A stretch of DNA of 64,000 nt from Hydractinia symbiolongicarpus (Eukaryota; Cnidaria; Hydrozoa; Anthoathecata; Hydractiniidae). Below, piece after piece: positions 11,067 to 64,000 of the stretch. Within the stretch, counting starts at the first letter, position 1; each line of letters starts with the position of its first letter. The DNA lies in NCBI RefSeq assembly GCF_029227915.1, contig NC_079886.1, positions 20,128,501-20,192,500 of the forward strand, in the 5' to 3' direction. Both the position numbers and the translations under genes were made by a program. The notes under the pieces are model-generated. The model worked only from the letters and a program-made list of their open reading frames with translations. It was not told the DNA's origin and made no database searches.

Positions 11067-14000
11067 TCAGTCGGTAAATTTTCGTCGTTTGCAACAACGC
11101 CGTTTGCAAGATGGAGAGCAATGCACTGCACATGACTGAGGACACTGTTGATTGCAATTTCCATTATTGCACGGTATATGGTAACCTGGATGACATCCTT
11201 GAGGACACGTTTGAGCGCCAGTGTAAACAGAACCTTGAGGAGCGCAACAGTTGATACATCCGCCAGTTTGACAAGTAGGAGGACATATTGGTGGACAATA
11301 TGGCGTAGTTGTAGTGGTAGAAGGTTCCGGTGTCGTTGATACATCTTCTGTTGTTGGGTTAGGTGTCGTTATTACAGGTGTTGTGATATTCGACGTTGTT
11401 GTTTTGATAGTGATCGTATATTGTGTTGGCGTCGCAGTTGACGTTGCTGTTGCCGTTGTTTTTTCAGTCGTTGTGGACTCTGTCGGTGTTGATTCTGTTG
11501 TTGTCGAAGTTATTGGTAGCGGTGTTGTTGTTTCTTCAGTCGTCGTGGATTCTGTTGTCGTTGATTCTGTCGTTGTCGTAGTCGTTTCTTCGGTAGTTGT
11601 GGATTCTGTTGTTGTCGGTGTTGTTGTTTCTTCAGTTGTTGTGGATTCTGTTGTTGTCGGTGTTGTTGTTTCTTCAGTTGTTGTGGATTCTGTTGTGGTT
11701 GTAGAAGTCGTTGGCCTCGTCGTAGTAGTTGTTGGCGTCGTAGTAGTAGTTGTTGGCGTCGTAGTAGTAGTTGTTGGCGTCGTGGTAGTAGTTGTTGGCG
11801 TCGTTGTAGTAGTTGTTGGCGTGGTAGTAGTAGTTGTTGGCGTCGTTGTAGTAGTTGTTGGTGTCGTGGTAGTAGTTGTTGGTGACGTAGGAGTAGTTGT
11901 TGGCGTCGTAGTAGTAGTTGTTGGCGTCGTGGTAGGAGTTGTTGGCGTCGTAGTAGTAGTCGTTGTAGTTGTGGTGCTGGGTGGGGGCGGATCTAAAATG
12001 TTTAAGTCTCGTTAATATGCTATATGATCATATATCTCTACTGAACGTTAATTTTTCACAACAATTTGCTGTTTTAGAAACTTTAAAACTGATATACTCT
12101 GCTCCATACCCTCTCCTTTATACAAAAATTATGTACGGTGTTTTTTTGCTTCCGCAATAAATAAACAAGTTGAGCTCATATGGAAGACCTTTAAAATTTG
12201 TTTGGAGTCTTTGAGAAAAGTCTATAATTTAAGTATTATAATTTATGTAAAATGAACGCTAAGCTGAACGACAAATAACATATTTAAACCTATATGCTTT
12301 CACAAAACTGTTAGATACAACACCTCTCAAGAGATGTTCATGATGTTGTGCATAGTTTGGGGAACTTAAGGACCGTTCAAGATTTTTTTTAAATGTATGC
12401 GAACTCCTAGACAACTTCTTAAGTTCTTTCATATGAAATTAACTTGTTTTTTTCACGGGAGAAGTTCCTACCTTCGCAAATCCGTTTTGAAATGTTCGCA
12501 ACAATCTTTAAAAGCCCATCAAAAGTTCTTGATCTGAAAATGCTGAGGTCAGTAGAAGCAATGTCAATTAATTGACCAATATGATAGCGTTTGCCAATTG
12601 CTAAAGCATACATATGCACGCCTTTTGCTTTCAAAGGTCTTGACGCTACATCAAGTTTAATTGCTCCTGGTGCATCTTCAGTTTGTCTACCATCTGTCAT
12701 TACTAATGCTACCTGCAATAAAGAAGTGAGAATCTTTTGTTAATAATATTTGAGTACTACAGTTTTTTCAAAACCAAATAACACACCTTTCCTGCGCCAA
12801 TTGCATTACCAGTTTGACATTGGATCGAACCTATGCGTGTTGCTGCATTTTATAATTTTTTTTATTTTACGAAGTATAAAAAACATCTATCTTTTTTCAC
12901 AAAATTGCTTACATTTTTTTGTGGATACGAAAACGTAAGCAAAAAGACTTACTCGCCACAAAGCAAATGTATTTATACATCAAAAATATCAAATCTTTAG
13001 ATAATGGGTAGATAATGGGTGCTGCAAGCTTGTGAAAAAAACAATGCAATGGAAAAAAGTTATTTACTGAAACAAAATCTGTCGAAAACAATTTTGCGGT
13101 TTAAAACAGTGTAGATTGTGGTACATCTTTAAAGAAAATATTCTGACTGTTTTGTTACCGTAGAAAGCGAAATATTTTTTTAGAGCCGATGTAGAAAAGA
13201 TCATACTGAATAAAAACATCATTTCCTTGCCTCATTGTCGCACCAATGTTATTAAATTTAAATCAGCTTTCCAACAATACAGAGATGTTTATTTTTATAA
13301 TCTTTTTTGAAAATTGAATATTTTTTTCAGTAAAATTTCTTCGAGTCACTTTTGTACTTATTTGTGGTTGGCATACATGAATTGCGCTGAAAGTGGAAAG
13401 GGGAAGTGAGAGAAAATGAGGAGGAATGTCCCCATTTTTTTGGTAGATAGCCGTTTCAGAAGTTTCAGAGAAGTGAAATATCTTTAGTGACGCCCAACCC
13501 ACGGTGGAGAATATTTTTTTGTCTTGTAACATAATTTGTCTTCTTTCAAAAAAATTCAATATTGTGCTGCGTAATTAGCATCAAATAATGCTGCAGTATG
13601 GTAAGAAGACACAAAAGTAGGTACCTTCGCAGGACACATTCCTTGGTACAGACAGACGTACACATTATAAATGATCCTTTCCTAGGATCTTCAGGCTCTT
13701 CATGGGTATTCCCAAGGCAAACAAAGTCTGTAAAATACTCTTAGTATAAACTAGGCGTCAACCCGTGGAAAAATCCACAGGGTCGCCCGTCCTTTATATA
13801 TCGCATTTCGTGTTTTCGTAACAGAGAAACTAACAGACGGTTGCTATTGTTATAGAGGTACGTTACTTACTCTTCTTATGTCAGAACGAGATCCTGCCGC
13901 AGCACTGAACAAATGACTGTCAGCGAGTTGCAGAGCAAGATCAATTCGTGTTTCGCCTTCTGTGTTTTTAATCTTGTTAATCTCATCGATAATATTTTCC

Positions 14001-19423: not shown

Positions 19424-22400
19424 TCAGTCCATAATTTTATGTCTATTGCAGCAATGCCTTTTGCACCATGGAGAACAATGTACTGCGCATGATTGAGGAC
19501 AGGGTTGTTTACAATTCCCGTTCACACATGGTGTATGATATTCGAGATGGCAGCCTGCAGGGCATGTTGGCGCAGTAGTGTAAACAGAACCTTGTGTTGT
19601 GCAGCAGTGTGTACACTCTCCATCCTCACATTTAATCGGGCATAATGGTGGACAAAATGGAGTGGTTGTTGACGTGGTTGTTGACGTGGTTGTCGGTGTC
19701 TCTGTTGTTGTTGTCGCCGTTTGTTTTGTTGCAGGTGTTGATGTCGTTGTTGCAGATTTTGTTACTGTGATTATAATTGTTTCAGAAACAGTTTTTGCTG
19801 CAGGCGCTATAGTTTTCGTGACAGTAGTTGTTATCAGTTGTGTTGAAGTAGGTGCTGGCGCTGGATTTGCTGGCGTTGAAGGTGCGGGCGCTGGAGGTGC
19901 TGCCATAAAAGATGCTGGTAAAGTGGGTGTTGGCATAGCTTGCGCTAATATATCTGCTGCGGGTGTTGCTATTACAGGTATTTTTGCTTCAGGCGTTGCT
20001 ACCGGTGCTGTTATTACCGGTATTGTTACTATGGGCGTTGTCATCATAGGTGTTGTCATAACAGGTGATGCCATGACAGGTGTTGTCATAACAGGTGATG
20101 TCGTAACAACTGTCGTCATAAGAGGTGCTGTCGTCAGAGGCGTTGTCGTTACGGTTGTTGTCATGGCAGGTGTTATCGTTGCAGGTGTTGTCATTACCGG
20201 GGTTGGAGTTGTTATTACTGGTGTCGCCATTACAGATGTTATTTCATCGACTGTTACTGTTTCGATTGGATTTCCGTCATGTACTGTGGTTGTTACGATA
20301 TGTGTCGGGTCTTCTGTAACAGTAGACGTTTCTACGACAGTTGTTGTATCATCCATACTCTCGGTGACAGTAGGATACGCCGTGCGTCTTGTTTTGGTAG
20401 GAGCAATAGTAGTTGCTGTCGTAGTAGTAGTTGTCACTTTCTTAGTAGTTGATTTTGACGGTTGTATCTTTTCTGTCTTGGTTGTTCCAGTTGATACATT
20501 TTGTGACAATGAATCTAAATTGCAAATTATTGTCAACGCGTCCTTATGCATTGTTATACTTGTTTCCATATAAATGTACTTTAAAAGAATCACAAGGGAT
20601 GGTTTTCGTAATTAATACTTATGCAAAAAATTTCTACCTTTACATATTTTTCTGGACACTTTCCCAACCATTTCCGACATCCCATTAAACGTTTTTGACC
20701 TGAATATGTTGTCGTCTGCAATGTTACCATAATATTCTTTGCTAATTGTTAAAACGTACAGTTTCACTCCTTTTGCCTTTAAGGTCTTTGAAGCTACATC
20801 GATTTTATTCACGCTGGAAAGATCTTCTGTTCGTCTAGCGCCCAAAATTAATAATACTACCTATTATAAAGAATCAAATAGTATGTATCAATCCTTATCA
20901 AAAAGGTAACTACTTTAATTTTGATGTTATATTATAAGACATAGGCATTAAATTATACCACTTTTTATTAAAACTGAATCTTCACCGTTTGCTCGCATTT
21001 GTCTTTGAAGACTTTTTTGAGAGTGTTTGTCCAAAAAAGAAATGGGTGCTTTTATTGTTTAAAACTTTTATTAGGACACACTGTTACTAATTTCTGGATA
21101 ACTAAAAGCCCATATGCTTAAACTGTTTCGTCAGTACAATAGGACACTAGATGTTGTAAGTAATCAAAGCTGGAAAACCAATAAGTATGGGCGAAGGATT
21201 AATAGTAAAGATATTATATTTGTCAAATTTAAATTTTAATTCTCATGGTAACTAGCTTACCTTTTTCAGTTATATACAATACAATACACCTAAATATTTT
21301 AAAAATTCAGTTTTACAATGTTTTTAAATAATGTTCCATCAATAAGGGTTAAGTTTTGACTTTTTAAGTCAGTTCGAAATATTTTGCTGAAAAAATTTTT
21401 GTCTTAAATTTTCCTTTTGGTTGCCATTGCAACGAAATGGAAGAGTTTGATATTAATTTCAGTAATACAATCATTATTCTTATGTTTTTTTATTTACATT
21501 CCTGTCCTAAAAACACCTGAAAAATATTGAGAATATCTTCGTGAAAAGCAGGGAGTTTGAAATATGATAACGTTATCAAAAAATCAACCACGTCATCACA
21601 TATTATCATGTCCGCAGCTTAGGGGATAAATAAAAGACACTTCAGTTTGAGTAACCCCTAAAATACCGGTGCTAATTGGATTAGAGTTAGCAAAGAAATA
21701 CAGAAGAGTTAATCATACAGTTTAATCCTGCAATATCGATGAAGTTGGTTTTCCCTGAGGAATTAAACTGCAAACTATGTAAAAACTATAAGTTTAAATT
21801 TCGTTGGTTGTTTTGCACATTTCAATTAATACTTTTATGATTCAAATAAGTTCGAATTTCGCCAGTTCAATGATTATCATTTGAATTTTTAAGTTTCTTT
21901 TTGTAAGGTCTGCTCTGTTAAAAAATATTGAAAATAATGTTGATGGCTTTTTTCGTTATTGGCTGGTATCATAAAGTACAAAATGCTTAATTAAGAAAAC
22001 CAAAAACAAAAGAAACAAAAAATAACGGAATACAATCTACGCAAATTATACCTAAAAAAACTGCTACTAGATCAAAATCAGAAAAAAGAAAAAGATAACA
22101 ATAACTAACGGTCGTTATTCATTGTGCACCGGCCCTTCTTTTTCCAAATCAGAGATAGAAAAGTTATTTTTACTGAGTAGCTAAAGCAAAGACTATATTC
22201 CAGCAACCGAGGGTTATCGGCATCCACTTGTTAAGTTGAAGTTATGACAGAACTATGAATTGAACAAATTTAATGAATAAAATGGGAGCAAGGAACGAAT
22301 CCTTTTTCAAGCGCACGAAAATGTACCAACCGCCGGGACTGATTTTTTAAAATTTATTAACTGTCGGTCAAAGCAGAGTTAAACTGATAGCATTAAACCT

Positions 22401-49366: not shown

Positions 49367-49432
49367 CTATCTTCCTAAAATAAACTTTGACCACTTTCTG
49401 TTCAACTTTGCTATTCTTTGTTTTTAAATCAG

Positions 49433-49715
49433 GTAATAAGTGGAGTCGTTACTCTCCAAAGAGAAGATCATGTGTGATCAAACCCCCCTGCTAATATTAT
49501 ATTTTTTATTTTTATTTTTATTTTTATTTTTTTATAACTGGGGTAATAAGTGGAGTCGTCACTCTCCAAAGACAAGACCTAGTATGATCAAACCCCCTTG
49601 TTAACTTAATTTTTATTTGATTTTGTTTTTATTTTTATTTTTGACTTGGGTAATAAGTGGAGTCGTCACTCTCCAAAGACAAGACTGAGTGTAGTCAAGC
49701 CCCCTTGCTGACTCA
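49433..49715 (-). repeat. Triplicated 3' UTR motif of copy A
   Basis: Three copies about 105 bp apart of (plus strand) GGTAATAAGTGGAGTCGTCA-type sequence, then CTCTCCAAAGACAAGA and TCAAACCCCCTTG, separated by T-rich spacers. The same motif appears once, in the opposite orientation, at 58440-58495 after copy B. Confidence 0.85.
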
Positions 49716-49732: not shown

Positions 49733-52260
49733 TTACCTCAGCTCTTCTAAAAAGAAAACATATGACTCGTGACTGTTAATAAGGCGGTCATCACAGAAAA
49801 TTACTGCTCTATCGTTGCAATGTATCCACCTGTGAACCGTTTGGTCGAAGGCTATGGTTGTGTAGTGACCATTATTTAAGTTGCCGCAATGGTTGATAAT
49901 AGCCCTTAATTGAAATTTTTTTACGAAATTTCACTTCTCCATCTACGGTAAAAGTTATGGAAAGGGTACCAGGGTAAGCAGTAATACGAGAGGCAATTTT
50001 TGACACAAGGCCGTTGGCACTGGCAAAACGTTTTAGCTGTAAAATGAGATGGGAACCGCACGACACTACCTTTTTTCAACTAGAGCAGTTTGATGAGCGT
50101 TGCAAAAATGGCAGAAGTAGGCATTGGTGTCTGACAACTCCAAGCTTTCGAAGAAATTATCTAAGGAAGATTGTAACGTAGGGTGCAGAGAAAGTTGGAT
50201 GCATGGTGCTATAACTTCTGAGGAGCTGGCAATATGACATGAATTGCAAGTGGTTGATGTCTTGATGTCAATACTAAAAAGACTTCCAAAAAATGGGAGG
50301 GATCAACTGGACTTCTAGAACCAGCCAAACTTTGAAAAACACCTACAAATGCTTCGCCTAACTTTGAGGTTGTTTTGCTGAGAGAAATGGCTTCTTTAAC
50401 TTTTGGAAGGTTATAAAAACATTGTAAGATGGAGTTTGCACAACATGTGTTTCCCAAGTTTTTTAGACCGCTATTCCTAAAATCAGGGTTAGATGGCAAT
50501 GGGACTGTTGTTTTGGAAGACCTTGTAGCAAGTTTTTCAGGTTTTTTGATTTTACAAGATTTTGTGTGATTTGCGGAAGATTTCTCAGGGGTTTTTGATT
50601 TCTTACATTCCATATTTGTAACAGAAGAAACTTCAGGAATGATTGGGGCCTTTTCAGGCTCAACCCAAGTGGTAGAATTTCGAGACATCCAGATGTAAAA
50701 AGAAGCACTCATGGAGGTAAAAGTTAGGGATTTTAATAGGGAACGTAAAGGGTTGTTAGGGAAAACAAGGCGACGAAAACAGGTCCTTACTGATTCTGAG
50801 CAGAAACCCCTTGCACCCACCTCAATGGCAATGCACGATCCATCCATTGTTTCTCATAGCATAACAAAGTGAAGAATATTTGTTAAGCTTTCGTTTGTGC
50901 CAATATTCCGTGTTCTCTTCACATGGACAAGTTAGTTCTAACATATTAATAACACGTCTGGGCGTAGTTGTGTTATTGCAATGTATGGTGGAACAACTAA
51001 AACGGAATCTAAATCTGACAGTATTTTCCAATCGGAAGCAAGGTGAAGAAGGCCTGGACACTTTGTATGCCTCTTCTTAGATTGTGATTGACCGGCCAGA
51101 ATGAAATTAATTTTGTTGCAATTGGAAAGCTTAAGAGGTTCATATGATACCAAAAACTCTTTCAATGCCTTAACCCTATTCGGTCCAGTGGGGGGGGGGG
51201 GGGGGGGGGGGGGGGCTGATTCCGCCCCCCCCCCCCCCCCCTTGACGATTTTTTTTAATAACTCCTGATTGCTTTGTTATATGGCTATAATACTTACTGA
51301 GTTTCAACATTTATCTATTAGACACCTGCATGCTAATTTTTTAGGTCCCATACCTTTCAGGGGCTTTGATATTGGCCATTACTCGAAACTACCCCTAAAA
51401 ATCTCTATGAAATCCTTATAATGGGGAAAATATAATAACTCCTGTTAGGATTATCCTTAGAACTTGAAACTTGCAACATAACTGTGTATCATCAAGAAGA
51501 ATCATTTTGAATAATTTAAACACGTGACTAATCCGATTTCCCGATTTTGTCGGATTTTACCCGAAAATCGGAAAAAACGGATTTTCGGGCAATTTTTGGC
51601 AATTTTTTGTCCGATCCATGTAAAAACCGGAAAATATGTTAAATAACTTTTATTTAGCTTTCAGAAACTTCAAACAGAATGTAAAAATTCGCTCTAGAAC
51701 AAAAGTAATTATATTTTAAGCAGATAGTGGCATTTTTAACAATTTTCAAGCTTTTGATGACGTCACAGAAAATGTGCTGACGCAAGCAAATTTTTTTTGG
51801 CGCCATTTTGTTCCTTTTATGACGCACTATAAGTGTGCCAAGTTTCATTCAATTTGAACAACCCTATGAAAAGTTATTGAGGGGGGGGCGGAATCCCCCC
51901 CCCCCCCGGTCATAGTATGTTCGAAAACCCCCGGACCGAATAGGGTTAACCAAAACTATTAAAACCGAGTCATGACGGTATGTGTATCTACCCTGCGTAA
52001 GGGAGGTCCTACAGGCACCCAATATGTGAGAGACATTTGAGGATGGTTTCTTGCACAGAATGCAACTTTTGTCTTCTTTGTCTTCCCCATCTCACAAGAT
52101 TGGTTGGAGAGGGAAGGGTGTCGTAGGTTGCCCCTATACAAAAGGAAGTTAGGCATTGTGGCAGTGAAAGAATTGTTCTCCAAGATAAATCATTTTTTCA
52201 CATAAGAGCATCATTTCGTCCAATTGCCTTGCAAATGCAACTGTACGGAAAGCTTTTAAA
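49733..52260 (-). pseudogene. Zinc finger - RLE endonuclease - USP polyprotein relic (copy A)
   Basis: From the right: QLHLQGNWTK and TATMPNFLLYRGNLRHPSLS, a C-x2-C...H-x4-C region in shifted frame (near 52050), the MITE insertion, then LLHLASDWKILSDLDSVLVV, AITQLRPDVLLI and LELTCPCEENTEYW (PD...E of a restriction-like endonuclease), then NNGWIVHCH. The frame 50847-50209 is continuous from AIEVGARGFCSESV (endonuclease end) through a Lys/Ser linker into GLKNLGNTCCANSILQCF, the USP Cys box. The USP His box follows near 49860-49790: NNGHYTTIAFDQTVHRWIHC then NDRAVI. Ends EELR with TAA at 49733-49735. Two in-frame stops and several shifts make it dead, but the continuous endonuclease-USP frame supports a true fusion. 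Confidence 0.8.
51174..51945. mobile_element. piggyBac-type MITE with G/C tracts, nested in the LINE
   Basis: TTAA target duplications at 51170-51173 and 51946-51949 bound 772 bp whose ends are inverted repeats beginning CCCTATTCGGTCC, as in piggyBac elements (TTAA plus CCC). Just inside the left end lie 26 consecutive G then, after CTGATTCCG, 17 C. The right end has 8 G, CGGAATC and 13 C. No coding region. Excision would rejoin the LINE reading HDSVLIVLVKALKEF, so it inserted after the LINE. Confidence 0.85.
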
Positions 52261-55081: not shown

Positions 55082-55150
55082 GATTCAGTCATCCAATTGG
55101 TAGGATGTCCTGTTAACAGGATAATGCAGGTTCGAATCTTGTCTGAATCA
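55082..55150 (+). tRNA. tRNA-like sequence, defective anticodon arm
   Basis: Acceptor arms GATTCAG and CTGAATC pair perfectly over 7 bp. D arm is ATCC-AATTGGTA-GGAT. T arm is GCAGG-TTCGAAT-CTTGT (two G-T pairs). Discriminator A. The anticodon arm TCCTG-TTAA-CAGGA has a 4-nt loop instead of 7, so the 69-nt sequence is about 3 nt short. GTT overlaps the loop, which would suggest Asn if bases were lost. Best read as a tRNA pseudogene or tRNA-derived element. It lies about 65 bp before the truncated 5' end of LINE copy B. Confidence 0.5.
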
Positions 55151-55196: not shown

Positions 55197-57341
55197 ATGT
55201 ATATATATATAATTGTTGATTTGACATACTGGCTAGATATAGCAAGTGCTTACCCTTCAATTCCTCATCGACTTATCTTTTTTGCCTTTAAGCGCTATGG
55301 TGTTCCTCCACAGTGGATATCTTTTATTAGAAATTATTACATTGGCATCTACAGCAAATCATTCTCTCCCCTTGCACCAAGTAATTGGCATAAACATTCG
55401 CGGGAAATTTTTGCAGGCTGTACACTATCCATTATCCTTTTTCTTGCAGGCATCAATATTATTCTTGAGTATACATTACTGGCTTCCGCTCCCAGGTTTA
55501 TCACATCAAGCAAAGTGTCACTCCCCTTGATTAGAGCCTTTATGGACGATATCAACCTGATGTCTTCATCAGTGTCTGGTACCCAAACGCTTTTGTCCAG
55601 GTGTACTGCAGCACTAAAATGGGCTGGCATGGATTTTCGTGCCAACAAATCACGCAGCATCGTGATCATAAAAGGTAAGTCCCTCAATTCAACTCCTTTT
55701 GCTCTCCAAAAGCCTGCTGACCCCACAGACTTCTCTTCCTACATTCCTTCTATCCATTCCATGCCTGTGCAATTTCTAGGCCGTATTATGGATGGTTCTA
55801 TCTCCGATAGGAAGGCTATTGACGAACTTGATGAGAAGTTATCTGCAGGGGTCTCGATTATTGACAAGTCGTTTTATAAAGGCCCTCAGAAGCTGTGGAT
55901 TTTACAACATCTATTAATCCCGCGCATTCAGTGGCCACTGCTGATATACGAAGTCTCAATGTCTTGTGTCAGCACCCTTGAACGGAAGGTGTCAGTATTT
56001 ATAAGGAAATGGCTCAATCTTCACCATTCTACCACTAATTTATGTCTTTATGCTTCCAGCTCACCTTGCTCTCTACCGATAAAAAGCCTAACTTCCATAC
56101 TCAAGTCCGCTAAGATCAGTGGACACTTGCTGCTAAGGGATTCTAAAGATCCATTGGTTTCGGCAGCTGTACCAACATTAAAGGCCGGTAGATGGAGTGT
56201 GTCCAATTCAGTCAGAATTGCCGAAGCAGAATTAAAGATTAAAGAAATTATGCGTTCACCCCATTTCGGTAAGGGCGGTTTAGGTCTCTGTCCTAAACCT
56301 AAGGGAACTTCTCTTAGACAGTCTCATTCTTACAGGAAATTAGTATCGGTGACTGCAAAAGAAATTGATGGTGAAAAGGATATAAGCAGAGCTTTGCAAC
56401 TACAGGTACAAGGAAGTTGGACCAGATGGGACAACTACATTAAGAACGACCTCTCCTGGAAGTCCTTGCTTGCCATGCCACCAAACCTGTTGTCGTTCTG
56501 TTTAAGCTCCACCTATGATATTCTTCCTTCTCCGAGTAATTTAAGGCGTTGGCGTATATGTACCGAATCCTTCTGTTTCTTGTGTGGAAAACAAGTCTGC
56601 ACTACAGCTCACATTTTAGGGGCCTGCAAAACGGCTTTAACACAGGGTAGATTTACGTTTCGTCACGACTCTGTCTTGCGCGAACTTTCACAGTTGATCA
56701 CCACGTTTTCCAAATCTATTTCCTCTCCTGTAAAGCACCTAAATAATGTAAAATTTGTTAAAGCAGGTAGTCACTCATCTAGCAAAAAATCAAAACCGGT
56801 AGGCCTTTTGCATCTTGCCACTGACTGGTTATTTCTTTCAGATTTAAATGGTGAACTTATTTTTCCTGGTCATATTGCCATAACATCGCTTAGACCAGAT
56901 CTTGTCCTGTATTCCAACAACAGCAAACCTGTTATTTTAATTGAACTTACATGCCCTTGTGAGGAAAACATGGAAACCTGGCATTCCAAAAAGCTCTCTA
57001 AATACATCCCTTTGATAAATATCATCGAGCATAATGGATGGCACGTAAATCTGTTCGCGATCGAAGTGGGTGCACGCGGATATTGCTCTCGGTCAGTTGC
57101 AATTTGTTTAAAAAGATTGGGTTTCCCAAACAAAGAAGCTTTCCAAGCCGTCCGGAAATTAGGCGACATTTGTATGAAAGCATCCTTCTGCATTTGGCTA
57201 GCCAGGAACTCAATTACGTGGAACCAAGGCAGCTGCAATCTTGTACCAGGCTCAACATCTGTGCCTACCCCTCTATTGCCAAAGGTTACAAGCCCGCAGC
57301 AACAAACAACAGCATCAACAACGCAGGCCAACTGTGGATAA
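55197..57341 (+). CDS. RT - zinc finger - RLE endonuclease ORF of LINE copy B (5' partial)
   Basis: A 714-codon open frame. The LINE begins at about 55212, so the N-terminal part (fingers motifs) is missing and the first ATG at 55197 belongs to flanking TA-rich DNA. LDIASAYPSIPHRLIFFAFK holds RT motif A, FAGCTLSIILFLAG motif B, AFMDDINLMS motif C (FMDD). After the thumb region, CFLCGKQVCTTAHILGAC is a C-x2-C-x8-H-x4-C knuckle, then LRPDLVLY, ILIELTCPCEENMETW and SKKLSKY supply PD, E and K of a restriction-like endonuclease, followed by AIEVGARGYCSRSV. This order is that of R2/NeSL-type non-LTR elements. The frame ends in a Thr/Gln-rich linker at TAA 57339-57341, where a shift separates it from the USP part. 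Confidence 0.85.
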   Translation: MYIYIIVDLTYWLDIASAYPSIPHRLIFFAFKRYGVPPQWISFIRNYYIGIYSKSFSPLAPSNWHKHSREIFAGCTLSIILFLAGINIILEYTLLASAPRFITSSKVSLPLIRAFMDDINLMSSSVSGTQTLLSRCTAALKWAGMDFRANKSRSIVIIKGKSLNSTPFALQKPADPTDFSSYIPSIHSMPVQFLGRIMDGSISDRKAIDELDEKLSAGVSIIDKSFYKGPQKLWILQHLLIPRIQWPLLIYEVSMSCVSTLERKVSVFIRKWLNLHHSTTNLCLYASSSPCSLPIKSLTSILKSAKISGHLLLRDSKDPLVSAAVPTLKAGRWSVSNSVRIAEAELKIKEIMRSPHFGKGGLGLCPKPKGTSLRQSHSYRKLVSVTAKEIDGEKDISRALQLQVQGSWTRWDNYIKNDLSWKSLLAMPPNLLSFCLSSTYDILPSPSNLRRWRICTESFCFLCGKQVCTTAHILGACKTALTQGRFTFRHDSVLRELSQLITTFSKSISSPVKHLNNVKFVKAGSHSSSKKSKPVGLLHLATDWLFLSDLNGELIFPGHIAITSLRPDLVLYSNNSKPVILIELTCPCEENMETWHSKKLSKYIPLINIIEHNGWHVNLFAIEVGARGYCSRSVAICLKRLGFPNKEAFQAVRKLGDICMKASFCIWLARNSITWNQGSCNLVPGSTSVPTPLLPKVTSPQQQTTASTTQANCG

Positions 57342-57344
57342 AAG

Positions 57345-58274
57345 TCACTCACACCCGGACCCAGAACCGCCTACCAACAGCACTCCAGCAAAACCAACTC
57401 ATGCTGGTCTGATTAATAAAGGGAATACATGCTATGCTAATTCTATCCTGCAAGCATTATCTGTAACTCCTGCACTTTGGTCACAAAGTGCATCGGAGTC
57501 CTCTTTTGTTTCCCCCCTGGCCAAGTCCGTCTTGCTGACTATGTCTCTGTTGTCTAAATCCACCTCAGTTGTAGACCCTTCCGCCTTTCTCCGAGCGTTA
57601 CAACGTAAGATGTCCCATGCTAGGAACAACCCATTTAATATTAACACACAGCAGGATGTTCCTGAGATTCTACCTCATGTATTAAACGAGTTGACAGGGC
57701 CATCAGTTATCGTAACAATATTATTACCAACAAAGTAACTACAACAATATCTTGTAATTCATGCCTCTTGTCTTCCAGTAGGGAGGAAAGTATGTCCATT
57801 CTGCCACTCCCTGTTTCAAACAACATAACAGGCTCCATTAAAGCTTTTTTGCAACCAGAATATATGTCTGGAAATGACAGATGGATGTGCCCACAGTGCT
57901 CTTCCCTTCAAGACAGTACCCGGGAAACTGTCTTCACCCAGTGTGGAGATATACTGATCATCCAACTGAAAAGGTTTAACTGTATCCAAGGAAGATCTGT
58001 GAAAAATAATAAATTTGTTTCTTGCCTCGCCCAAGGTCACGACACCCTAAAAGTTTATTCCCATCCTGCGGAAGATATATCATTCACAAACCAATATAAA
58101 TTAACCGCCACTATTAATCATTCAGGCACACTGGCGGCTGGTCACTACTGGGCTTTCATAAGCGATCAGGGTGTTAATACATGGTTAAAATGTGATGATA
58201 GGGCAGTGATTAGTGTCAAGCCATCTGATCTAGATAACTCCACAGTGTATGTGTTATTTTTTGTCAAAATTTAA
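57345..58274 (+). pseudogene. Ubiquitin-specific protease (C19) domain of LINE copy B
   Basis: Frame one (to 57738) reads HAGLINKGNTCYANSILQAL, the USP Cys box, with the catalytic Cys codon at 57430-57432, then DPSAFLRALQRK and QQDVPEILPHVLNEL. After a shift near 57705 the second frame reads ISCNSCLL and WMCPQCSSL (zinc ribbon Cys pairs), GDILIIQLKRFN, and the His box TLAAGHYWAFISDQGVNTWL with His codon 58143-58145, then CDDRAV (third triad position) and TVYVLFFVKI before TAA. All USP boxes are present in order at near-minimal length. Two frame breaks (near 57300 and 57705) disable it here. A deubiquitinating role for the LINE protein is inference. Confidence 0.85.
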
Positions 58275-58439
58275 ATAGTGTGAATTCGCACTAAAACGGG
58301 AGTACATATCAAAAGGGGGAGGGATCTCTTTTTTCTAGCGGTTTGAAATTACCCCTGCTGTGTGTTTTACATACAGTTTACCGTTATTCACGAGTTCGCT
58401 CACTCGCCGCTTTCCTAGAAAGCAATTATAAGAAGCTTA

Positions 58440-58560
58440 GCAAGGGGGCTTGGCAATTGCCTTGTCTTTGGGTGTAACGACCCCACTTATAACCCCAGTT
58501 CTGTAGGGAGGCTAAGTTGGCTCACTTAGTCTACAGGGTTATCGATCCTGCTATACCTGA
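58440..58560 (+). other. 3' UTR motif and inverted repeats of copy B
   Basis: GCAAGGGGGCTTG then CTTGTCTTTGGGTGTAACGA and CCCCACTTATAAC is the reverse complement of the copy A motif. It is followed by nested inverted repeats: CTGTAG...CTACAG enclosing CTAAGT-TGGCTC-ACTTAG (58503-58540). Candidate RT recognition structure. Confidence 0.6.
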
Positions 58561-58758: not shown

Positions 58759-58897
58759 CAGGTTCACAAGTCCTGGCGCTCGGGTGGTTGTCTACTCATA
58801 TTTATAGTTTTATATTTATTTATTTTTATAGTAAATTCTTTGTTGTATTGTTGTCGTTATGTCTGTCTTCTGTTTTCATGTTGTCAGTTTTTGTGTA
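58759..58897 (+). repeat. Duplicated segment B, left copy
   Basis: Starts CAGGTTCACAAGTCCTGGCG and ends TTGTCAGTTTTTGTGTA. Near-identical to 63858-64000 in the same orientation, with a 4-bp indel in the TTTA run. Confidence 0.9.
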
Positions 58898-59070
58898 CCG
58901 ACCGTTAGTTGTACGTATTGTATTGTGTAGGGAGGGTTGTTTGGTTCAATTACCTTGAATCTACTGGCCAAAACTATTGGAATTTAGCTGTCCTTCCCCC
59001 CTACCCCCATACACAATGTTGATTTGTGTTAAATTTTGAGCATTCAAGGAACAGCCAAAGTCAACACTGT

Positions 59071-59138
59071 TTAAGGGGGAGGGGGCAGGTTTCTTCAGTC
59101 CAACAAGAAGGAATTCCATTATATATTGGCCAGGATTG
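59071..59138 (+). repeat. Duplicated segment A, left copy
   Basis: TTAAGGGGGAGGGGGCAGGT to ATATATTGGCCAGGATTG, near-identical to 63788-63857 in the same orientation. The two A copies flank the Rep-hairpin-Tigger-Tc1 block. Confidence 0.9.
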
Positions 59139-59513
59139 TCTGAGAGAAATATAAATTATATACAGTTCAGTAGGGGGTGTACATTTTCAAAATAAGACAT
59201 CTACCAAGCACAGAGCTACCACAGCACATCAGCCAGCCTTGTTAGCCACCATTTTTTGATCTGAAACATGTGCAGCCTCTTTTTCGAAATCGCAGCCTCA
59301 TTTCAATGTCAAAATGTAAACAAACCAAAAAAACAGGCTGGCAAGTGCTGTGATAGCCAAATAACAGCCGTAACAAACTTATTTGACATGTGATAGGGGT
59401 GGGGGGTTGTGATACACAAGGAATCTCTATCCACAAACACAAATATAGGCTTTTCTTTGACATATACTATATATAAAATGTCTATATAGATAAAACAACA
59501 AATAAACAAGAAG
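59139..59513 (+). promoter_or_regulatory. Upstream region of the Rep gene with TATA-like box
   Basis: No ORF of note. TACTATATATAAAATG at 59465-59480 lies 34-49 bp before the Rep ATG, and CTATATAGATAAAAC follows. A plausible promoter, though TATA-like words are frequent in this DNA. Confidence 0.35.
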
Positions 59514-60800
59514 ATGGCTGAATGCTCAGATCAAAGACAAGTTTACCTTGTCACTTACAGCCGTGCCGACTTGGAAAAGGTGAAGACAAGGGAGGACTTC
59601 GCCGACATTGTGGTACGTGTCTTAAGGGAAGTCGTACAGCAATGGGCTTGTTGTTGTGAGAAACACAAAGAGGAACCCCAGCAAGTTCATTTCCACTTGT
59701 CGATTAAATTGAAAACGGTTCGGCGTTGGAAACAAGTGAAGGCGAATGTTACAAAAAGCCACGGGATAGTTTGCCACTTTCAGGAATTCCCAGCAAATTA
59801 CTATGATGCCTACCGCTACGTCACAAAGGAGGATCCCGATTACATCACTTCCGAGGGGCACCCTTTGTTAACAAATTCACCACAGTCCAAGCCGGCATCG
59901 GCTAAACGTAAAGCTATTCGGTCGGCCTCTGATGTGAACGTTCGCCCAGCCGTACCGAAAAAAAAAGCTGTAACAAAACTTGATGTGATGGATCTCTATC
60001 ACATCATAGTAACCAACAACATCAACACAGAGCGTGAACTTTGCGTCTTGGCGAACTTACAAAAAAATGAAGGAAAAATGGACCTTTTGAAATTTATTTT
60101 GACGATTTCAGATAAACGTCGTTGTGAAATAATACGTAATGCGTGGCGTGTGGAAAATTCGATGAAGGAAAATGATCGTCTGAAATTGACGGCAATTCAA
60201 ATCCTTCAGGAAGCACGAAAAAAGCCCTGTGTTTGTGCTGGTGACTATTATATACATGTTGGTCAAACTCTAGAACAAAACAACATAGACACAAACAAGT
60301 TCCGTGAGGCTGTTACTAATGCATTACGATACGGTAGAAAAAAAGGCAATAACGTCATGCTGATCGGTCCAGCAAACTGTGGCAAGACCTTCGTATTGCA
60401 GCCTCTAACCGAGATATACAACTCTTTTGTATCTCCTGCATCTGGTACTTTTCCATGGGTAGGAGCAGAGAAAGCCGAGGTGGTCTTTCTCAATGACTTG
60501 CGATGGAACGAAAAGCTCATGCCTTGGGGAGACTTTCTCAACCTTTTAGAGGGACTTCCTGTTCACATCTCTGCACCAAAAACACACTATGCTGAGGATT
60601 TGTTATGGGTGAAGAAAACTCCGATATTTGGAACATCAAGTACCAAAATAAGGAAATACGATGGTGGCATTATCAATGACCGCGAAACAGCAATGATGGA
60701 ATGCCGATGGAAATATTTTGAGTTCACTAAGCCTGTGGAGGATCCAAAAGATATTGTGAAGTGTTCCTCCTGCTTTGCCCACCTAATTCTTGGCTATTAA
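59514..60800 (+). CDS. HUH endonuclease - SF3 helicase Rep protein
   Basis: An intact 428-aa frame. Residues 11-16 YLVTYS fit Rep motif I, H59-F60-H61 the HUH metal motif, and Y102-V-T-K105 (within YYDAYRYVTKED) the Y-x2-K nicking motif. Residues 131-160 are basic. The helicase part has Walker A GPANCGKT (285-292), Walker B VVFLND (323-328), motif C IFGTSS (371-376), then ETAMMECRW and a terminal C-x2-C (CSSCFAHLILGY). This is the architecture of rolling-circle Reps of CRESS-DNA and parvo-like replicons and of eukaryotic Rep-encoding transposons such as Replitrons. Single exon, no frame breaks and a hairpin array directly downstream suggest a mobile or virus-derived replicon rather than a host gene. 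Which lineage is undecided. It would nick and unwind origin DNA in the nucleus; that is family knowledge, not shown here. Confidence 0.85.
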   Translation: MAECSDQRQVYLVTYSRADLEKVKTREDFADIVVRVLREVVQQWACCCEKHKEEPQQVHFHLSIKLKTVRRWKQVKANVTKSHGIVCHFQEFPANYYDAYRYVTKEDPDYITSEGHPLLTNSPQSKPASAKRKAIRSASDVNVRPAVPKKKAVTKLDVMDLYHIIVTNNINTERELCVLANLQKNEGKMDLLKFILTISDKRRCEIIRNAWRVENSMKENDRLKLTAIQILQEARKKPCVCAGDYYIHVGQTLEQNNIDTNKFREAVTNALRYGRKKGNNVMLIGPANCGKTFVLQPLTEIYNSFVSPASGTFPWVGAEKAEVVFLNDLRWNEKLMPWGDFLNLLEGLPVHISAPKTHYAEDLLWVKKTPIFGTSSTKIRKYDGGIINDRETAMMECRWKYFEFTKPVEDPKDIVKCSSCFAHLILGY

Positions 60801-62655: not shown

Positions 62656-63771
62656 TCAATATTTTGTTCGCAAACCTTTGCTTTTGATGATTTCGTTCAA
62701 ACGCCTTGGCATAGATGTAATCGTTCGATCGATTATGTCGGTGGAAAACTTTGTGAGTGTTTGTTTACACCTACGGCTAAATTGTTTGTACGTCTCTTTT
62801 GTGATATTCAGTGTTAGAGCATCTTTCTTATGTTTGTTGTCCACCAGATGGAAGATGTTTTCAATGGGATTGAGGTCTGGTGATCTTGGCGGTATTTTGA
62901 AAACTTTGCAACCAATCGCCTCCATCTCTCCCCGTGCCAGGGCACTACTTTGAGATGGGCAATTGTCTTGAAGAAATTGCCTGTCAACGTTATTAGCAGA
63001 TATCTGAAACATTCCTGGTAAATGCTCCCTAACAAAGTTCGCACATGTTTGTCCATTCACATTTCCAGCATACTGGTGACACTTGATTACACCTCGACCG
63101 TGGGCAATTGCAACGAAGAAGCGAGCCATGCGACCACCGACACCTTCTTTCTTCCCCTTCGCTGTGCAGTGTTGGTCGAGACGTTCGCCACGTTTTTTCC
63201 AGGTACGGGTTCGAGACGTACGTGCGTGTTGTGCTGGATTTGTTTTATGTGCCCATCCAACACCGTCGAAATAAAATGATATGTTCTCTGCCCAAAAATT
63301 TGATGGAAGATTCTTGCATCTTCTTGCAAATTCCAACCTTTTTTTTAGATCTTCAGTTAGAAGTTGACCTTTGCGGCGACATTGCGTGAAACCGTATCCC
63401 GCTTTGTTCAAGTACCGTCGAACTGTTCGGTTTGACACATCTCGTTCTGATAAACCTGCCTCTCGCTGTATATCCGTTGAAGAAAAGTCACCAACCGTCT
63501 TGCGTAGTTTTGTGACACTCGTGATAATTTTCCGCATTTCTCTACTTGTGATTTTGCGTGGACGACCCCGTTTTCCCTTAGTGACAGTCAACTTTTCTTT
63601 AAAAACTTCGGCTTTAGGGAGCTTCATGTGTCTATAAAGGGTCGTCCGGGCATACTGAGGGTACATATTTTGCAAGTTGCGAAGTGTTTCACCCTTTTGT
63701 TGATGTAGATAGCGTAGTACCAACGAAAGTTGTAACGGTATCGGATCGTACCGGCGTTTTGTTTTATTCAT
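62656..63771 (-). CDS. Tc1-like transposase, DD34E, intact
   Basis: A 371-aa frame. Residues 10-55 are the first HTH, KGKRGRPRK (66-73) is the GRPR hook, and 75-125 the second HTH. The catalytic residues are D169 (FYFDGVGW), D269 (FLQDNCPSQ) and E304 (SPDLNPIEN), with 34 residues between the last two, the Tc1/IS630 spacing. No frame breaks. Cuts and pastes its element at TA sites, by family knowledge. Terminal inverted repeats were sought on both sides and not recognised, so the element ends are unknown. It follows the Rep block and lies between the two A segments. Confidence 0.92.
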   Translation of the reverse strand: MNKTKRRYDPIPLQLSLVLRYLHQQKGETLRNLQNMYPQYARTTLYRHMKLPKAEVFKEKLTVTKGKRGRPRKITSREMRKIITSVTKLRKTVGDFSSTDIQREAGLSERDVSNRTVRRYLNKAGYGFTQCRRKGQLLTEDLKKRLEFARRCKNLPSNFWAENISFYFDGVGWAHKTNPAQHARTSRTRTWKKRGERLDQHCTAKGKKEGVGGRMARFFVAIAHGRGVIKCHQYAGNVNGQTCANFVREHLPGMFQISANNVDRQFLQDNCPSQSSALARGEMEAIGCKVFKIPPRSPDLNPIENIFHLVDNKHKKDALTLNITKETYKQFSRRCKQTLTKFSTDIIDRTITSMPRRLNEIIKSKGLRTKY

Positions 63772-63787
63772 GGCAACAGGTTTGTCT

Positions 63788-63857
63788 TTAAGGGGGGGAG
63801 GGGGCAGGTTTCTTCAGTCCAACAAGAAGGAATTTCATTATATATTGGCCAGGATTG
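63788..63857 (+). repeat. Duplicated segment A, right copy
   Basis: Direct copy of 59071-59138, here joined directly to segment B, with a slightly longer G-run. Confidence 0.9.
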
Positions 63858-64000
63858 CAGGTTCACAAGTCCTGGCGCTCGGGTGGTTGTCTACTCATAT
63901 TTATAGTTTTATATTTATTTATTTATTTTTATAATAAATTCTTTGTTGTATTGTTGTCGTTATGTCTGTCTTCTGTTTTCATGTTGTCAGTTTTTGTGTA
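63858..64000 (+). repeat. Duplicated segment B, right copy
   Basis: Direct copy of 58759-58897 running to the window end; its full extent is not visible. Confidence 0.9.

Follow-up and report, generated by a model that had tools for sequence, protein, structure and literature searches.

A LINE family of Hydractinia with a restriction-like endonuclease and a conserved C-terminal ubiquitin-specific protease

Introduction

In nematode NeSL and Utopia-1_TSP elements, an Ulp1-like protease forms the N-terminal part of the element protein, according to excerpts of the published account (PMC4640811). Here we describe a family of long interspersed nuclear elements (LINEs) with a restriction-like endonuclease (RLE), the protein of which ends in a ubiquitin-specific protease (USP, peptidase family C19). 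Two copies lie in a stretch of 64,000 nucleotides from the hydrozoan Hydractinia symbiolongicarpus (NCBI RefSeq assembly GCF_029227915.1, contig NC_079886.1, positions 20,128,501 to 20,192,500), which is called the window throughout.

The Hydractinia element resembles NeSL and Utopia-1_TSP in being an RLE-type LINE with a reverse transcriptase (RT), a zinc finger, an RLE after the RT and a ubiquitin/SUMO-type cysteine protease in the same protein, but the protease described in the excerpts is Ulp1-like and N-terminal, whereas the one found here is a C-terminal USP (PMC4640811). This likeness is one of architecture only, as the RT was compared with R2 and unnamed relatives rather than with named references of the clade. 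An N-terminal Ulp1-like protease is not a feature of all Utopia elements. Many, though not all, members of the NeSL/Utopia clade insert into one particular repeated gene, whereas the 3' flanks of the Hydractinia copies that we call family A vary. Closer in sequence is a group of unnamed Ulp1-bearing RLE-LINEs, which share about 33-34% identity with the window copy in the RT-RLE core (P0121, P0126) but in which a Peptidase_C48 domain lies before the RT and no USP was seen. R2 elements (R2Tg, R2Bm) supply the best solved relatives of the RT, have the same order of CCHC knuckle and RLE and likewise possess a structured RNA in the 3' untranslated region (3'UTR), but they are 28S-specific, whereas the family A flanks show no fixed target. 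R2 is not known to carry a protease. Dualen/RandI LINEs, which have a dual endonuclease, share with the present element a deubiquitinase-class cysteine protease, but theirs is OTU-like and not a USP. Outside the LINEs, sections of one survey report OTU or Ulp1 domains in Ginger1 and other DNA transposons and a Peptidase C19 domain in a transposase_11 protein of Trichomonas (PMC2836005); these proteins also combine a deubiquitinase-type domain, of the C19 family in one case, with a transposon protein, but they are DNA transposases. No description of a C19/USP domain in a retrotransposon was found among the papers listed by full-text searches, with subscription journals and Repbase outside their scope, and the element looks like a new deubiquitinase form among the protease-bearing RLE-LINEs.

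Results

The family encodes a single protein of ~1430 aa, in which an N-terminal region, the RT, a CCHC zinc knuckle, the RLE and a flexible linker are followed by the C-terminal USP, and the USP is a conserved and inherited part of the mobile unit. Intact in-frame relatives exist, with full-length open reading frames (ORFs) of up to 1454 aa. At least 150 relatives were found, the best 8000 candidates being scored and 120 listed; among the 120 listed, at least 42 contain a USP segment and at least 29 a complete USP. A search with the USP alone returned 35 proteins, which fell into 24 element proteins (E 2.1e-37 or better) and, after a gap, 11 other USPs (E 7e-18 or worse). Named sources among the USP-group matches listed were Hydractinia, protein P0010 from a 'Pseudomonadales MAG' (metagenome-assembled genome) and the JGI protein P0101, annotated as 'ubiquitin C-terminal hydrolase'. 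P0010 and a further LINE protein attributed to a Cyanobacteria MAG, P0170, presumably represent eukaryotic contamination. No nucleotide loci of the element were detected in viral and GTDB contigs.

Among 39 complete LINE USPs, the catalytic Cys and the Asn/Asp of the triad are present in all 39 and the His in 38. The QQD box has its Asp in 39/39, its first Gln in 37/39 and its second Gln in 36/39, and each Cys of the two CxxC pairs of the zinc ribbon occurs in 39/39. These catalytic and zinc sites persist among LINE USPs that are, pair by pair, 41% identical on average, and the domain has the USP fold of peptidase C19. The stretch between the RLE motif and the USP measures 80-162 aa (339 in P0101), and the linker is predicted to be disordered in a structural model of P0027. 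No USP was found in 26 of 72 tree rows, 20 of which lie within the USP clade. Because these 20 proteins end before or at the start of the USP, they are uninformative rather than counter-examples: 18 stop before the USP, while P0007 and P0020 break within its first residues, still showing the USP start (AGLINKG; GLTNLGNTCY) before running out of register. No UCH match was obtained in the five of these 20 rows that were scanned. The next row outside the USP clade, P0112, also stops too early, and P0065, P0099, P0108, P0117 and P0119 resemble the Ulp1 group in stopping a short way past the RLE.

The original prediction had placed one element at 55212..58274 of the window, with RT motifs, CCHC knuckle and RLE followed by a complete set of USP boxes. 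Translation and Pfam searches bore out the element, its motifs and their order for what we call copy 1, but this copy lacks the N-terminal half of the RT, the frame is not continuous and a second copy (52249-49739, minus strand) had been missed. The 5' part of copy 1 has been lost, because homology to full-length relatives begins at 55224, corresponding to residue 436 of P0239; positions 55224-57221 are 67.8% identical to residues 436-1102 of this protein (tblastn). Copy 1 is also dead, since its reading frame is broken twice, downstream of the RLE and within the USP. Pfam detected RVT_1 in frame 55212-57338 (E 1.2e-9) and UCH/C19 in frames 57202-57735 (E 2.1e-11) and 57666-58271 (E 7.6e-22). 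The QQD box of the copy 1 USP was confirmed by translation, and QLKRF is present in the listed open frame. The H. symbiolongicarpus protein P0001 is 96% identical across 83% of the window query. In the following list, motifs were located by translation, residue numbers are those of P0004, and invariance refers to an alignment (A1) of 16 rows.

55224-58271, plus strand: copy 1, RLE-type LINE with C-terminal USP (C19), 5'-truncated and frame-broken
55224..57235, plus strand: C-terminal half of the RT, thumb/linker, CCHC knuckle and RLE in a single open frame
55539..55550, plus strand: RT catalytic box FMDD (D308/D309 invariant)
56574..56627, plus strand: CCHC zinc knuckle CFLCGKQVCTTAHILGAC (C651/C654/H663/C668 invariant)
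56892..57005, plus strand: RLE core RPD...IELT...KKLSKY (R759 P760 D761, E776 and K792 invariant)
57236..57399, plus strand: RLE-USP linker of low conservation; the frame shift of copy 1 falls about here
57400..58271, plus strand: USP (C19) domain in two frames, about 57400-57735 and 57699-58271
57430..57432, plus strand: catalytic Cys of the USP in the GNTCYAN box
57753..57899, plus strand: zinc-ribbon pairs of the USP, CNSC at 57753-57764 and CPQC at 57888-57899
58143..58196, plus strand: catalytic His of the USP at 58143-58145 (GHY) and third triad residue Asp at 58194-58196 (CDD)
58438..58500, plus strand: structured 3'UTR RNA motif of copy 1, single unit, also found in copy 2 and other genomic copies
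49739..52249, minus strand: copy 2, divergent and more decayed, with the RLE-linker-USP order of copy 1
52249-51930, minus strand: thumb/CCHC of copy 2
51174-50275, minus strand: RLE, linker and N-terminal part of the USP of copy 2
50281-49739, minus strand: C-terminal part of the USP of copy 2
49425..49713, minus strand: 3'UTR motif of copy 2, three tandem units, array period 107-110 bp

In copy 2, the RLE end, the linker and the USP start share one frame. Its UCH match has an E value of 2.8e-8 (Pfam), and P0022 scored highest among 17 query proteins for the RLE-to-USP piece.

A search of the genome of the same animal (480.9 Mb; the window is C12:20128501-20192500) with an RT-RLE query gave at least 70 match rows, and 63 of 1294 first-look candidates were scored, so that all counts are lower bounds. 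Twenty stretches were fetched, a non-random set picked by hand mainly among long or open matches. The match to P0239 extends into the USP in all 20 (tblastn), and eight have a single open frame of 1422-1426 aa. Four of these frames gave both RVT_1 and UCH in Pfam, with an E value of 5.6e-16 for RVT_1 in L012. Six frames of 1426 aa differ pairwise by 1-10 aa, and the family A copies compared are 99.4-99.9% identical across 4.8-6.4 kb on six contigs; because these frames and copies are nearly identical, the family must have moved recently. The 3' ends of 10 family A copies lie within a few bases of one point, and L027 is 5'-truncated. Dispersed copies with a uniform 3' end, 5' truncation and no LTRs (long terminal repeats) make up the pattern of a non-LTR retrotransposon, for which tandem partial copies are unusual. 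In all nine 5'-complete family A copies examined (L009-L013, L017-L020), a 3' portion of another unit lies directly upstream; its length varies, and the tandem junction is exact (...AAACCTTTTTCAT|CTTATTGTTGACC...). The RNA that is mobilised in family A may exceed one unit in length, or be multimeric or circular. At G000:C13:23678933-23702141, related copies form an array with a period of ~5.3 kb.

No fixed target was apparent by eye in family A, as nine genomic 3' flanks all differ and the tenth is the next unit, and no convincing target-site duplications were found in six copies. A tRNA-like sequence (window 55082-55150, plus strand; Rfam 46.6 bits, gathering 29) lies 73 bp upstream of the truncated start of copy 1; ARAGORN makes no tRNA call at this position. 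Some NeSL-related elements target tRNA genes, as stated in the excerpts (PMC4640811). For the present family, a tRNA gene as target found no support beyond copy 1.

Both window copies end in the same structured 3'UTR motif, which places the USP inside the element. The stretch common to the two 3'UTRs has a local score of 63, compared to 28 for the best of 500 dinucleotide shuffles. RLE, USP and 3'UTR evidently travel together, because all three recur in two divergent insertions within the window. Among the 20 fetched genomic copies, 19 also have the motif after the USP, and L021 alone lacks it there. The original prediction of a non-LTR retrotransposon that encodes a USP is thus supported: the USP is present in all 20 fetched copies, compared individually and not as a consensus, and it sits between RLE and 3'UTR motif instead of being bounded by independent insertion breakpoints. 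Nineteen versions of the motif fit two hairpins beneath a G/C-rich closing helix. When pairing was scored on the same 19 related sequences from which the structure had been drawn, 95.1% of the cells were paired (87.2 in shuffles), 23 changes affected both sides of a pair (5.9 in shuffles; 0/500 as high) and 6 pairs showed such changes (3.3 in shuffles; 5/500 as high), whereas further pair types, one of five measures, showed no excess (14 vs 13.7). Pairing was lost when the partners were slid by 1-3 columns. The RNAalifold consensus contains both hairpins, four both-side pairs and a slightly different closing helix, with a weak energy of -1.65 kcal/mol. Rfam has no match at the motif, and a first sequence pattern for the 3'UTR gave no matches. 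R2Tg starts reverse transcription via a structured 3'UTR RNA formed by its last 65-67 nt, according to excerpts of the published work (PMC12222951). We can only guess that the motif described here might do the same; the R2Tg element is located at the very 3' end (PMC12222951), whereas the family A motif lies ~500 nt upstream of it.

Among solved structures, R2 proteins (9nl3, 3.9e-28) match the RT of P0239 best, and LINE-1 ORF2p is weaker (7.8e-12); the similarity to the R2 RLE is weak by sequence itself. The RT phylogeny suggested in the original prediction was carried out in part, with R2 and the unnamed Ulp1-bearing relatives. In an unrooted RT-RLE tree of 38 rows, thinned by removing 12 rows by hand and leaving out rows with unobserved C-termini, 26 USP rows lie on one side of a branch (support 98/97) and nine Ulp1 rows on that of another (100/100). 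The 39 LINE USPs are separated from four host USPs with support 97/94; eight of the 11 other USPs did not pass a motif filter, and the PDB supplied the sequence of USP36. RT-RLE and USP distances of 23 proteins are correlated with a Mantel r of 0.92, which was reached in 0/9999 permutations. Because the USP rows cluster and the two sets of distances agree, the sequences are most simply read as a single acquisition of the USP followed by shared descent. The branch of the R2 outgroup (8.79) is too long for rooting, and gain and loss of Ulp1 or USP are not readable from the trees. The best solved relatives differ with the method (USP8/USP36 by profile, USP36 by single sequence, USP2 by fold) and point to no single host USP subfamily as source. 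Among the relatives found with P0117, Peptidase_C48 precedes the RT in the four that were checked (P0121, P0126, P0148, P0170). An RLE motif is recognisable in 114 of the 121 proteins of this group, 109 of which end 40-70 aa after it. Conversely, no Peptidase_C48 was detected at E up to 0.1 in six long public and four genomic ORFs of the USP element (Pfam). Two related groups of RLE-LINEs thus differ in the ubiquitin/SUMO protease that they encode and in the end of the protein at which it sits. Pfam lists no N-terminal zinc fingers in 10 scanned ORFs; sub-threshold C2H2-like matches occur in P0112, outside the USP rows.

Discussion

We consider it probable, at roughly 60%, that this RLE-LINE carries an inherited USP that strips ubiquitin from the element's own RT-RLE-RNA particle and possibly also from proteins at the insertion site. 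Since R2 proteins are the best solved relatives of its RT, the element is expected to be copied by target-primed reverse transcription. If active, the USP at the end of the protein would strip the particle of ubiquitin and so protect it against ubiquitin ligases of the host and against proteasomal degradation; the N-terminal Ulp1 of the related elements may have the equivalent task with respect to SUMO or ubiquitin. A precedent for such a target is human LINE-1 ORF2p, which is reported to be ubiquitinated by TRIM41 and degraded (PMC10716122). The removal of host ubiquitin, at which the original prediction had guessed, is possible. Going further, the removal of ubiquitin-type tags may be a required life-cycle step of both lineages, effected by proteases of unrelated clans (Ulp1 before the RT, USP after the RLE), with the USP as a counter, still at work in the living animal, to ubiquitin-based host restriction; to this wider proposal we give slightly less than even odds.

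Several observations weigh against this interpretation. That the USP is an active deubiquitinase is a prediction from its intact active-site residues, and it may act on something quite other than the protein of the element. One of the 39 LINE USPs lacks the catalytic His, and L015, one of the ten longest genomic frames, has GNICY instead of GNTCY in the Cys box. The ratio of nonsynonymous to synonymous substitution rates (dN/dS) could be computed for two close pairs only, synonymous sites being saturated or nearly so between families; with very few changes, it was 1.04 in the USP and 0.44 from RT to RLE in L014/L015, and 0.54 and 0.07, respectively, in L012/L018. As the USP value exceeds that of the core in both pairs, these ratios do not demonstrate that the USP has been under recent constraint. 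The same values, together with the fact that transposable elements do pick up host sequence, would suit a functionless piece of a captured host USP gene that is carried along by one lineage. Such a neutral passenger would not, however, be expected to keep its catalytic and zinc sites at 41% mean pairwise identity, retain an open frame in several lineages and co-diverge with RT-RLE, which makes this explanation very improbable. An artefact of chimeric assembly or chance neighbourhood could be suspected from the broken frame of copy 1 alone, but has already been refuted by two divergent copies in the window, 20/20 fetched genomic copies and independent public assemblies, and can practically be dismissed.

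Other functions of the USP are conceivable. Rather than the element's own protein, its main substrates could be chromatin or repair proteins where the element inserts, such as ubiquitinated histones or repair-signalling proteins; their deubiquitination would open the target or dampen the damage response. Because a linker predicted to be disordered ties it to the neighbouring endonuclease, the USP would be delivered to the nick, and OTU and Ulp1 domains of transposases have been proposed to be linked to ubiquitin/SUMO control of DNA repair (sections of PMC2836005). Nevertheless, Pfam detected no histone- or nucleosome-reading domain in 10 long proteins scanned. The solved USPs that are nearest in sequence and fold (USP8, USP36, USP15, USP2 and USP11 among them), going by their generally known substrates, also give no single substrate class, and we regard a main function at the insertion site as rather unlikely. 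The original prediction had also suggested that the protease processes the polyprotein, and a protease at the C-terminus of a single long protein, with a stretch of 80 aa or more before it, would be suitably placed to free RT-RLE from itself. USPs cut after the Gly-Gly of ubiquitin. In 36 of 37 proteins (two of the 39 were not measurable), no Gly-Gly occurs from the RLE motif to the USP, so that self-cleavage is disfavoured and was rejected as main function; in addition, no ubiquitin-family domain scored above threshold in 10 full proteins (Pfam), APG12 matches being sub-threshold. Self-cleavage is thus very improbable, and deubiquitination of the element's own particle is the interpretation that we prefer.

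To our knowledge, the job of the ubiquitin/SUMO proteases that recur in transposons is untested. The family described here is young and multi-copy, its RT is joined to what looks like an intact deubiquitinase, its host is a laboratory animal, and a related Ulp1-bearing group is available for comparison; for these reasons, self-protection of a retrotransposon by ubiquitin removal becomes testable. The USP may help the element to survive the protein-destruction system of the cell, and an element-borne deubiquitinase would directly parallel the deubiquitinases of viruses.

Other features of the window

Downstream of copy 1, a 436-aa open frame (59490-60797, plus strand) shows weak similarity to Rep/parvovirus NS1-like proteins and to helicases, with no match reaching its Pfam cut-off, and is possibly an endogenous viral relic. 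A 385-aa open frame at 62656-63813 (minus strand) resembles, by eye, a Tc1/mariner-type transposase. Two pieces of ~96% identity occur in swapped order, 58759-58897 matching 63858-64000 and 59070-59138 matching 63787-63857. Finally, two Thr-rich open frames on the minus strand (11067-12011 and 19424-20611) have, as judged by eye, a common Cys-rich C-terminal tail.

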